Shown here: positions 28,951-31,659 of the stretch, one piece after another
Position numbering within the stretch: the first letter of the stretch is position 1
Layout: each line of letters opens with the position of its first letter
Origin: a bacterium
GTDB lineage: Bacteria; Omnitrophota; Gorgyraeia; Zapsychrales; Zapsychraceae
Direction of reading: 5' to 3'
Assembly: GCA_030429765.1 (NCBI GenBank)
Contig: JAUIER010000004.1
Location: 1-33,130 of the forward strand
Length of the DNA: 33,130 bases
Translations under genes and position numbers: made by a program
Notes under the pieces: model-generated
Databases searched by the model: none
What the model saw: the letters and a program-made list of their open reading frames with translations, nothing else
What the model was told of the DNA's origin: nothing

Positions 28951-29517
28951 TTACTGCCCCTGCAGTCCTCTTTTTTCCCGCCGGGCTTCGCGATAGGCCG
29001 CCTGAAGTTCTTTGCGATATTTGGTATTGGGTGGACGGACTTGAAGATCAGACCATCCTTGCCGAAGGATTTCCTGATTGATAAACCGTTCTTGACCGGC
29101 CTTCTCCATGAAGACGTAAGCCAACGTATAATTATCGTCGTCCTTCTTGGTGGAATCAAACTCCAGACGGACCGTTTGATCCATCAGCATTTCCTGAACC
29201 GATTCAAAGGCCGTTTCTTCCCATGGCCGGTCGTGCTCGACCTCGGACTCGAGACGAAATCCGTACTGATCGCGCTCAGTCTCTACACGCCGTTGACGCG
29301 GCGCTTCGACGGGCTTAAGTCCAATCATCCGGATAATCTCTTTTTGATTATCCGAATTGTAGATTACAAAACGGTTGATCGCCCGGACCTCTACAACCTT
29401 GACCGCTCGATAATTGTCTTCCGTTTTGAAAAAGAATTCAAAATTTGTTTCCGCCCATGACAAACGGCACAGGACTAGGACACCTAAAATTGCCGCTGTC
29501 AAAGATTTCAATGACAT
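28951..29517 (-). CDS. secreted staphylococcal-nuclease-fold protein, probably not catalytic
   Basis: The protein has 188 residues. A signal peptide (SLKSLTAAILGVLVLCRLSWA before ETN) indicates export. The rest follows the SNase/TNase outline: AVKVVEVRAINRF, IIRMIGLKPVEAP, TVRLEFD, YTLAYVFMEKAGQERFINQE, GWSDLQVRPPNTKYRKEL and AREARREKRGLQ-like helix. Compared with active SNase, the first calcium Asp (usual DGDT) is gone, the IDTPE stretch reads LKPVE (second calcium Asp lost), and the Arg of the usual YGRxLAYV is missing (NYTLAYV). Only the first Arg and the Glu remain. A non-catalytic binding role is likely. A strong GGAGG lies 4 bases before the ATG. It is downstream of the tRNA and upstream of tilS. 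Confidence 0.72.
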   Translation of the reverse strand: MSLKSLTAAILGVLVLCRLSWAETNFEFFFKTEDNYRAVKVVEVRAINRFVIYNSDNQKEIIRMIGLKPVEAPRQRRVETERDQYGFRLESEVEHDRPWEETAFESVQEMLMDQTVRLEFDSTKKDDDNYTLAYVFMEKAGQERFINQEILRQGWSDLQVRPPNTKYRKELQAAYREARREKRGLQGQ

Positions 29518-29548: not shown

Positions 29549-29626
29549 TGGTAGCGGGGGACGGGCTCGAACCGTCGACCTTTCGGGTATGAGCCGAACG
29601 CTCTAAACCAGCTGAGCTACCCCGCC
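29549..29626 (-). tRNA. tRNA-Met (anticodon CAT), elongator type
   Basis: All arms fold. The acceptor GGCGGGG pairs with CCCCGCT (G1 with U72), the D-arm is GCTC/GAGC, the anticodon stem TTCGG/CCGAA encloses the loop CTCATAC, and the T-arm is GACGG-TTCGAGC-CCGTC. The discriminator A and CCA are encoded. The anticodon is CAT. The three G-C pairs of initiator tRNA are absent. The sequence closely resembles elongator tRNA-Met as I remember it from Bacillus, including G1-U72, so Met is preferred over Ile2. The D-loop has one extra T. Confidence 0.92.
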
Positions 29627-29749: not shown

Positions 29750-30055
29750 TCAGGTGTAAAAAATGATATAGAGCAGGACCAGCGCGATAACGGTTGAGAC
29801 GATATAGTAGTCATTGAAATAGAAAAAATCCCGCACGCGCTCAGAAGAGGTGTATTCGTACTGAACGTCCTCACTTTCGACATCACCCGTGTTTCTGAGA
29901 GCCAGCACCTCTGACTTTTTTAGACGAAGGAATTTGTCGGCAATCTTGTACGCCTGTAATTTACGCTGCTGGATCAGATCCATGATCTTCTTTTCTGAGA
30001 CTCCCAGCAATTGCGCCGTTTCGCGCACGGATACATATTGAGTTGTTGTCGCCAT
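29750..30055 (-). CDS. excisionase-type helix-turn-helix protein with C-terminal membrane anchor
   Basis: The protein has 101 residues. Residues about 6-55 form a MerR/excisionase-like (HTH_17) DNA-binding domain: YVSVRETAQLLGVSEKKIMD, then LIQQRKLQAYKIADKFLRLK and KSEVLALR. An acidic linker (DVESEDVQYEY) follows, and the last 18 or so residues are a single hydrophobic helix (YYIVSTVIALVLLYIIFYT). This topology leaves the DNA-binding domain in the cytoplasm with a tail anchor in the membrane. The upstream neighbour, 22 bases away, is a bactofilin carrying the same kind of HTH domain. There are no phage genes around, so a recombination accessory role is unlikely. Tethering or membrane-associated regulation is my inference. 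Confidence 0.78.
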   Translation of the reverse strand: MATTTQYVSVRETAQLLGVSEKKIMDLIQQRKLQAYKIADKFLRLKKSEVLALRNTGDVESEDVQYEYTSSERVRDFFYFNDYYIVSTVIALVLLYIIFYT

Positions 30056-30077
30056 ATCTTGAGATCCCGGATGCTAT

Positions 30078-30656
30078 TTAGTCCACACGCCCCGATGAGG
30101 CCCATTGATCAATCTGTCCGCGATCAAACTTCCATGCCTTGCCCTGTTTGGTCGCCGGAATCTTTCCCGCATTCGCCAGGGCTTCAATCTCCTGAAGATC
30201 AATTTCCAGATAATTGGCAACCTCATCGATCCCGAGGTAATCTTCGGAAGTGGTTTCGGCCCCTAACCCTGACATCTGACATTTACCCTGGAAGATCGCT
30301 CCCTCCACGATATTGAGTTTCGGCGTTTTGATATCGCCGGTCAAAATCGCTGTCGGCATAAGGACCAGCATGACGTGCGCGGTGATATCACCGTTGATCT
30401 TCCCGGCGATCACGACGTTATCTCCGGTGATGTTGGCGTTCACGATGCCGGCACTACCGACTGTCAAGGTTCCCTTGGCCTCCAGACTTCCCGTAAATTC
30501 GCCGTTGATCTTCAGATTGACCGGATCATTAAACTTAAGCGAGCCCTGCATCTGAGCATTGATTTCGATCGACTTATCGTTCGACTCTTCCTTCAAAGCC
30601 TTTCGTCCTAGCGCCATTTCTTCCTCCTCTGGTTTTGATTTAAACCAACCTGACAT
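30078..30656 (-). CDS. bactofilin fused to an excisionase-type helix-turn-helix domain
   Basis: The protein has 192 residues. Residues about 28-130 are a bactofilin (DUF583) beta-helix: SIEINAQMQGSLKFNDPVNL, then INGEFTGSLEAKGTLTVGSA, GIVNANITGDNVVIAGKING and GDIKTPKLNIVEGAIFQGKC. Residues about 139-190 are an HTH_17 domain: DYLGIDEVANYLEIDLQEIE, ALANAGKIPATKQGKAWKFD, RGQIDQWA. Bactofilins polymerise into membrane-associated scaffolds; a fused DNA-binding domain is unusual to my knowledge. Two starts are possible. The ATG at 30654-30656 has no clear ribosome binding site. The in-frame ATG at 30615-30617 (MALGRK) has AGGAGG 6 bases upstream, so translation may begin there or at both. Neighbours are tsaD and the membrane-anchored HTH protein. 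Confidence 0.85.
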   Translation of the reverse strand: MSGWFKSKPEEEEMALGRKALKEESNDKSIEINAQMQGSLKFNDPVNLKINGEFTGSLEAKGTLTVGSAGIVNANITGDNVVIAGKINGDITAHVMLVLMPTAILTGDIKTPKLNIVEGAIFQGKCQMSGLGAETTSEDYLGIDEVANYLEIDLQEIEALANAGKIPATKQGKAWKFDRGQIDQWASSGRVD

Positions 30657-30684: not shown

Positions 30685-31659
30685 TTATTCTTGTCGAACC
30701 TTACCGTTTAAATGATATCCCAAACCGGCAATCATCGCGGCATTATCCAGACACAAGGCCATCGGCGGAATATGCACATCGATGGAACGCGCTTGGGCCG
30801 CGGCCATCATTCGCTCGCGCAATCGGGTGTTGGCTGACACCCCGCCACCGACCAACAAGGTGCAGGCCTGCAAACTGGCGCAAGCGTCCATACATTTGTC
30901 TACCAGCACCTTGGTGACACTTTCCTGAAAGGCATACGCCACTTGATCCACCCGGTAGGTCTCATCGTTTTGATGATCCCGATGATGGTAAAGGACCGCC
31001 GTTTTGATACCGCTAAAGCTAAAATCTAATGTATCAGGAATTGCCGCGCATGTAAATTGTATCTCGCTGTTTTTACCGGATTCTGCGACTTTTTGAATGG
31101 CCGGCCCTCCGGGGTAGCCTAGTTGGAGAATGCGCGCGACCTTATCAAAAGCCTCACCGGCCGCGTCATCACGGGTCTGTCCCAGCTTCTTGAAGTGCGG
31201 CAAGGTTTCGACCTGAAACATCGTCGTATGCCCGCCGGACACCACCAATCCAACCGCTGGTAATTGCGGCTGAGGCGACTGATCATCAGGTTGTCGTAAA
31301 AAATTAGCGTACAGGTGTGCCTGGATGTGATCAACTTCAATTAGCGGAATGCCGAGTTGATGCGCTAACGCCCGACTAAAAGAGATGCCCACAAGTAACG
31401 AACCAATCAAACCCGGATGAGTCGTCACCGCCACCGCGTCGATGTCCGACAGTTTAAGCCCGGCCTTTTCCAGCGCCTGTTCGGAAACGGCATGAATACA
31501 TTCCAGTTGCCGGCGTGAAGCAATCTCCGGGATAATCCCGCCGTACTTGCTGTGTTCCTTGAGGCTCGACACGACCACATTGGAGAGAATTGTCCGGCCG
31601 TCCTGAACAACCGCGACCGACGTCTCATCACATGACGTCTCGACTCCCAGGATGTTCAC
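30685..31659 (-). CDS. tsaD: tRNA N6-adenosine threonylcarbamoyltransferase (TsaD)
   Basis: The protein has 324 residues. ILGVETSCDETSVAVV opens the ASKHA fold, VDHIQAHLYANF holds the metal-binding His111 and His115, and VSGGHTTMF, KVARILQLGYPGGPAIQ, FSGIKTAVLY and LLVGGGVSANTRLRERM follow in order. With TsaB, TsaC and TsaE it makes t6A37 in ANN-decoding tRNAs. The start is GTG at 31657-31659, sharing one base with the stop of the protease gene. Confidence 0.96.
   Translation of the reverse strand: MNILGVETSCDETSVAVVQDGRTILSNVVVSSLKEHSKYGGIIPEIASRRQLECIHAVSEQALEKAGLKLSDIDAVAVTTHPGLIGSLLVGISFSRALAHQLGIPLIEVDHIQAHLYANFLRQPDDQSPQPQLPAVGLVVSGGHTTMFQVETLPHFKKLGQTRDDAAGEAFDKVARILQLGYPGGPAIQKVAESGKNSEIQFTCAAIPDTLDFSFSGIKTAVLYHHRDHQNDETYRVDQVAYAFQESVTKVLVDKCMDACASLQACTLLVGGGVSANTRLRERMMAAAQARSIDVHIPPMALCLDNAAMIAGLGYHLNGKVRQE

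Follow-up and report, generated by a model that had tools for sequence, protein, structure and literature searches.

The Omnitrophota form a large bacterial phylum that is almost wholly uncultured. In the window analyzed here, meaning the whole 33,130-nucleotide stretch of DNA from one of its members, two adjacent minus-strand genes lie beside tsaD (Table 1). The first encodes a bactofilin β-helix followed by a winged helix-turn-helix (HTH) domain of the excisionase type (HTH_17), and the second, here termed the partner, encodes an N-terminal HTH_17 domain, a juxtamembrane motif, and a C-terminal membrane helix. This arrangement had been described in a sequence-only reading of the window and is real, with all domains scoring above the curated Pfam cut-offs; HTH_17 (PF12728) is matched by residues 140-189 of the fusion, as numbered from an ORF beginning at 30656, and by residues 7-53 of the partner. 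The start that the same reading gave to the fusion gene, at 30656, probably lies 13 codons upstream of the true one. The likeliest start, at 30617, corresponds to Met14 of that ORF; 99% of 187 homologs begin with this Met, and an AGGAGG sequence closely precedes it.

Table 1. Features of the bactofilin-HTH fusion gene, its partner gene, and the adjoining tsaD (positions in the window)
Feature	Positions	Strand	Basis or remark
Partner gene (HTH_17, juxtamembrane motif, C-terminal membrane helix; 101 aa)	29750..30055	-	
Partner C-terminal transmembrane helix	29756..29803	-	Predicted from sequence and from the AlphaFold model of a relative
Partner juxtamembrane motif, YTxxERxxDFFYFNDFY	29804..29854	-	Nearly invariant; helix in model
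Partner HTH_17 domain	29897..30037	-	PF12728, E 1.3e-8
Bactofilin-HTH fusion gene (179 aa with corrected start)	30078..30617	-	Conserved Met, AGGAGG, Pfam domains
Fusion C-terminal winged HTH_17, acidic, DNA-reading residues replaced	30090..30239	-	PF12728, E 1.6e-10; pLDDT 88-91
Former recognition helix of the fusion (aa 154-163, ORF from 30656)	30168..30197	-	Few basic residues; D/E where BldC has Arg30
Bactofilin β-helix domain	30276..30569	-	PF04519, E 2.5e-23; AlphaFold pLDDT 93-97; Foldseek 6rib, 2n3d
Fusion N-terminal peptide, MALGRK (family MA[FL]xKK)	30600..30617	-	Resembles bactofilin membrane-targeting sequence
Shine-Dalgarno sequence of the fusion, AGGAGG	30623..30628	-	5 bases before ATG at 30617
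tsaD, conserved upstream neighbor	30685..31659	-	Context, outside the module

By sequence and predicted fold, the bactofilin domain of the fusion is of the standard, polymer-forming type. The PF04519 match (residues 30-127, from the ORF at 30656) scores 82.6 bits against a curated cut-off of 27.9, and the top Foldseek matches are 6rib, 2n3d, and 6ria (probability 1.00, E-values 0.02-0.08). In the AlphaFold model, a flexible joint (pLDDT 67-76) connects the confidently predicted β-helix and winged HTH. Canonical bactofilins, such as Caulobacter BacA (2N3D) and the Thermus protein (6RIB), likewise combine a β-helix with a short, basic-hydrophobic N-terminal peptide. The published membrane-targeting consensus of bactofilins is MFSKKKK (PMC12448750); in the family alignment, the N-terminus of the fusion has F/L at the third residue (87%) and K/R at the next conserved column (97%), and the protein seems able to reach the membrane via this peptide of its own, a point against the coupling model proposed below. 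Its C-terminus is another matter: whereas known bactofilins have disordered, variable tails (PMC12364344), the fusion ends in a folded winged HTH. The fusion is the sole bactofilin of its own genome and the only one in most genomes checked. A second bactofilin, starting with MFKK and lacking an HTH, was seen in two fusion-bearing genomes, G196 (L294) and G129 (L295).

The fusion and its partner make up a conserved two-gene module of the Candidatus Omnitrophota. Full-length fusions, at 50-76% identity, were found in most of 74 relatives, and the partner was the next gene after the fusion in 65/65 loci, demonstrating that the fusion architecture is not due to chance and that the pairing anticipated by the sequence-only reading holds far beyond the genus. 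At these 65 loci, the gap between the two genes ranges from -28 to +103 bases, with 4-base overlaps being frequent. Among 384 genomes drawn across the phylum, the fusion profile matches 349 and the partner profile 318 (E 1e-9); approximately 31 of the 349 fusion-profile matches are weak (E no better than ~1e-15) and mostly involve the HTH part alone, judging from the match table, and their removal leaves fusions in ~318 of the 384 genomes. At all 21 of the loci read where the partner profile failed, a more diverged partner was present, and every fusion with room downstream was adjoined by one. Both genes are always on the same strand in the 187 pairs extracted, and only three gaps exceed 150 bases. 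Five of 269 loci yielded no pair in this extraction: in two (L084 and L125), the partner is present by BLAST and escaped extraction because of an open frame with a distant upstream start; in two others (L097 and L159), the fusion is cut by the contig end; and the fifth (L148; SBBO01000025.1) has a partner without an adjacent fusion. The bin containing this last locus is labelled Planctomycetales and is probably a mislabelled Omnitrophota bin, since its tsaD and ctpA are 60% and 72% identical, respectively, and its partner gene is Omnitrophota-like. As regards relatives outside the phylum, the best 80 of 231 scan matches were nearly all labelled Omnitrophota.

The loci examined yielded no fusion without a partner, whereas 13 genomes (eight from family f14, two from f33, and G230, G080, and G386) retain the partner and have no bactofilin genome-wide. 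This pattern indicates that the fusion depends on the partner, and not the reverse, and that the partner has a further role, such that anchoring cannot be its only one. In family f14 (L248-L255), the HTH-membrane protein is kept between tsaD and polA, with the bactofilin lost, and possesses an extended linker (WRIxRELFP). Four genomes of family f36 have no bactofilin and no listed partner.

Across relatives, the neighbors of the pair are housekeeping genes, including tsaD, ctpA, tilS, ftsH, larB, and polA, and as such they give no clue to what the module positions. The setting does bear on a possible role as an excisionase or recombination directionality factor, to which the matches to HTH_17 and to TIGR01764 (“excise”) might point. 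There is no sign of such a role, which the sequence-only reading had also considered unlikely: the pair holds one conserved chromosomal place, next to tsaD among housekeeping genes, across the phylum, one of the two proteins carries a membrane helix, and DNA-contacting residues have been lost, all of which render this explanation hardly credible. Several other features were seen nearby. Two genes downstream of the pair lies a gene (28951-29517, minus strand) whose SNase-like product (PF00565, E 4.4e-11) seems to carry a signal peptide; this gene occurs near the pair in many relatives too, and a tRNA-Met (CAT) gene is found between it and the partner (29549-29626, minus strand). In several families (L256, L259, and L266), a MgtC/SapB-like gene separates tsaD from the partner, and a gene read by eye as larB-like is directly downstream of the partner.

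Turning to the partner protein, HTH_17 is matched by 30/30 members of its alignment (A2), and conservation within the juxtamembrane motif is high (D76 98%, Y79 87%, N81 90%, D82 93%, F83 97%, and Y84 100%). The Pfam matches include neither HTH_25 (PF13413) nor an M23 peptidase domain, and the chain ends a few residues past the membrane helix. An HTH joined to a membrane helix is the outline of membrane-tethered, one-component transcription regulators such as ToxR and CadC; a partner of this kind, for which the bactofilin-HTH protein would serve as a sequestering or sensing platform, would also be in keeping with its persistence in genomes without bactofilin. However, the partner has no periplasmic sensor domain, its base-reading residues are degraded (see below), and its neighbors are housekeeping genes, making a role as a regulator quite improbable.

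Both HTH domains of the pair share the MerR-like winged fold of BldC, RdfS, Xis, and RacA, which are among the closest Foldseek matches together with CbpM (3ucs, matching the fusion model); a PDB sequence search with the fusion HTH alone gave no meaningful match. BldC, RdfS, Xis, and RacA bind DNA, whereas the fusion HTH is without the DNA-reading residues. It is also acidic in all 187 members (net charge -3.8 ± 1.2, maximum -1), while the partner HTH averages +1.95 and a comparison set of 31 other HTH_17 domains of Omnitrophota averages +3.5. The charges of the two domains are not anticorrelated across pairs. A loss of positive charge from the partner HTH upon loss of the bactofilin was considered and rejected, as the domain is just as acidic in sister lineages where the fusion is retained.

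The comparison with BldC rests on a mapping made here, with a BldC sequence whose numbering matches the residues that the publication cited next identifies. In BldC, Arg30 reads a base, the R30A substitution abolishes binding, and Lys26 also contacts bases, while Lys33, Thr27, and Thr29 hold phosphates and the minor groove is contacted from within by His46, Arg47, and Arg48 (PMC5859096). At the corresponding positions of the fusion, Arg30 is replaced by D/E in 84%, and Lys26 and Lys33 are K/R in just 9% and 11%, respectively. Together with the acidic charge, these replacements make it unlikely that the fusion HTH binds DNA in the manner of its family. The earlier proposal that the fusion is a DNA binder is not supported, given this loss of DNA-contacting residues across homologs, which the sequence-only reading had itself named as a ground for refutation and which the partner shares in part. 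In the partner, the Arg30 and Lys33 positions are D/E in 74% and 81%, respectively, His46 is replaced by an aromatic residue and Arg47 by Leu, but the Lys26 position is K/R in 75% and Arg48 is kept in 100%. Part of the basic surface is retained (Lys22, Arg44 in 100%, Lys46 in 96%, and Lys47), and DNA binding by the partner HTH is uncertain.

It is tempting to see in the pair a DNA tether, with the partner HTH sitting on a chromosomal site and the bactofilin-HTH scaffold doing the organizing at the membrane, much like RacA or the ParABS system that is organized by bactofilins in Myxococcus (PMC5703909). RacA, BldC, and excisionases are among the closest folds, and the average charge and conserved basic wing residues (Arg44 and Lys46) of the partner HTH are consistent with such a function. 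The uniformly acidic fusion HTH and the replacements at the Arg30, Lys33, His46, and Arg47 positions of the partner argue against it, and we consider a tether rather unlikely. The related suggestion that DNA is recruited to a surface site survives in a weak form and for the partner HTH alone.

Evidence for contact between the two HTH domains comes from co-variation. Mean-field DCA was applied to the 187 pairs (Neff 143), and nulls were obtained by exchanging partners solely between genomes similar to each other, with shuffling from tight to loose. Against the three pairing-shuffled nulls, in that order, the block formed by the fusion HTH and partner HTH gave z values of 2.8, 4.2, and 6.2; the bactofilin-core by partner-HTH block and the juxtamembrane and membrane-helix blocks were at or near null, and short linker blocks showed a weak excess (z 1.7-2.9). 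In partial Mantel tests under the tight null, the observed value was reached by 0/500 shuffles for HTH-HTH versus 469/500 for bactofilin-HTH, with a less clear separation under the looser null (0/500 versus 3/500). Gene conversion was excluded as a source of the signal, with HTH identity being 0.237 within pairs and 0.250 across pairs. Small residue subsets can reach z values of up to 4.8 by chance, as seen with a mistaken partner register, and Neff is just 143; for these reasons, the co-variation is taken as evidence of moderate strength that the HTH domains of the fusion and partner touch directly. BldC and RdfS form HTH-HTH oligomers, and the head-to-tail interface of BldC was tried as the contact geometry; it is unsupported, the corresponding residue pairs being uncoupled.

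When AlphaFold was given the two gene products of one relative, joined by read-through, the HTH domains were modelled at pLDDT 91.9 with their arrangement not fixed (pTM 0.56). That neither HTH is placed against the other, and that partners exist without a fusion, would fit a situation in which the two do not touch: the fusion HTH would make contacts within the polymer or cap it, and the partner would be a separate tail-anchored protein, kept nearby through operon inheritance. However, the HTH-HTH block stands out in DCA and in the Mantel test under the tight null, and the fusion has never been found without the partner. Such independence of the two domains is unlikely, though not implausible.

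The explanation that we prefer, and which we judge to be as apt to prove right as wrong, is that the pair constitutes a scaffold-to-membrane coupling module, with the HTH domains acting as protein adaptors that link the bactofilin polymer to the tail-anchored partner. The scaffold-plus-membrane theme of the sequence-only reading finds support. A narrower proposal, namely that the bactofilin polymer and the tail-anchored protein each contribute one excisionase-type winged HTH to what has become a heterotypic protein-protein lock, serving as a cytoskeletal adaptor phylum-wide, is put forward more tentatively, as a real possibility. According to this coupling model, the bactofilin would polymerize on or near the inner membrane, displaying many copies of its acidic HTH; the latter would hold the HTH of the partner, and the tail-anchored partners would gather on the polymer as an array. 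The array, in turn, may fix the polymer or recruit other membrane factors via the DFFYFNDFY segment.

The proposed logic of coupling would parallel that of RodZ and MreB, although both the HTH family and the polymer differ. In the bitopic RodZ, the HTH lies in the cytoplasm and binds a polymer of the cytoskeleton, MreB, and not DNA (PMC6946637), and a similar contact is proposed here from co-variation. Unlike the partner, which has an HTH_17 domain and no periplasmic domain, RodZ has an Xre-type HTH (PF13413) and a large periplasmic domain; moreover, in the Omnitrophota the polymer itself carries an HTH. Separate genes for RodZ and MreB were found in 16/19 and 19/19 of the genomes checked, respectively, which makes the bactofilin-HTH/partner pair an additional module; a role for the partner as a RodZ substitute was rejected on the same grounds. 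Another likeness is seen in BacA and LmdC, which are encoded in one operon; LmdC, a bitopic membrane protein, binds the bactofilin through a cytoplasmic tail (PMC10945521). LmdC, however, belongs to the M23 peptidases and its tail is disordered, whereas the partner is without an enzyme domain. Finally, CbpM, which has the MerR fold, has lost the residues for binding DNA and has a protein as its target (PMC4063869), but it regulates a chaperone and has no link to cytoskeleton or membrane. RodZ/MreB, BacA/LmdC, and CbpM each offer a precedent for one step of the proposed mechanism.

A literature search, covering little of the subscription literature, found no description of the pair or of a conversion of its HTH domains to adaptors, no bactofilin carrying an HTH domain, and no paper naming both bactofilin and Omnitrophota. 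The parts of the module are of known kinds; their combination, its phylum-wide conservation, and the apparent conversion of two excisionase-type HTHs to adaptors are what the papers searched do not contain. Being present in most of the phylum, and including the sole bactofilin in nearly all genomes checked, the module offers a direct handle on the cell organization of the Omnitrophota. If the adaptor reading is true, it would represent a second case, independent of RodZ/MreB, of a DNA-binding fold that has come to connect the cytoskeleton with the membrane. A further caution is that labels such as “excisionase-family DNA-binding” can mislead when applied to such proteins. Other HTH_17 proteins occur in the genome to which the window belongs, where three loci (L054:2227-2940, minus strand; L053:1666-2379, plus strand; and L052, C5:1-480) encode small proteins of several tandem HTH_17 domains, an unusual poly-HTH architecture. 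The two that were read fully have four domains each, with recognition helices of the DNA-binding type (e.g., SRITIYNRVKSG).
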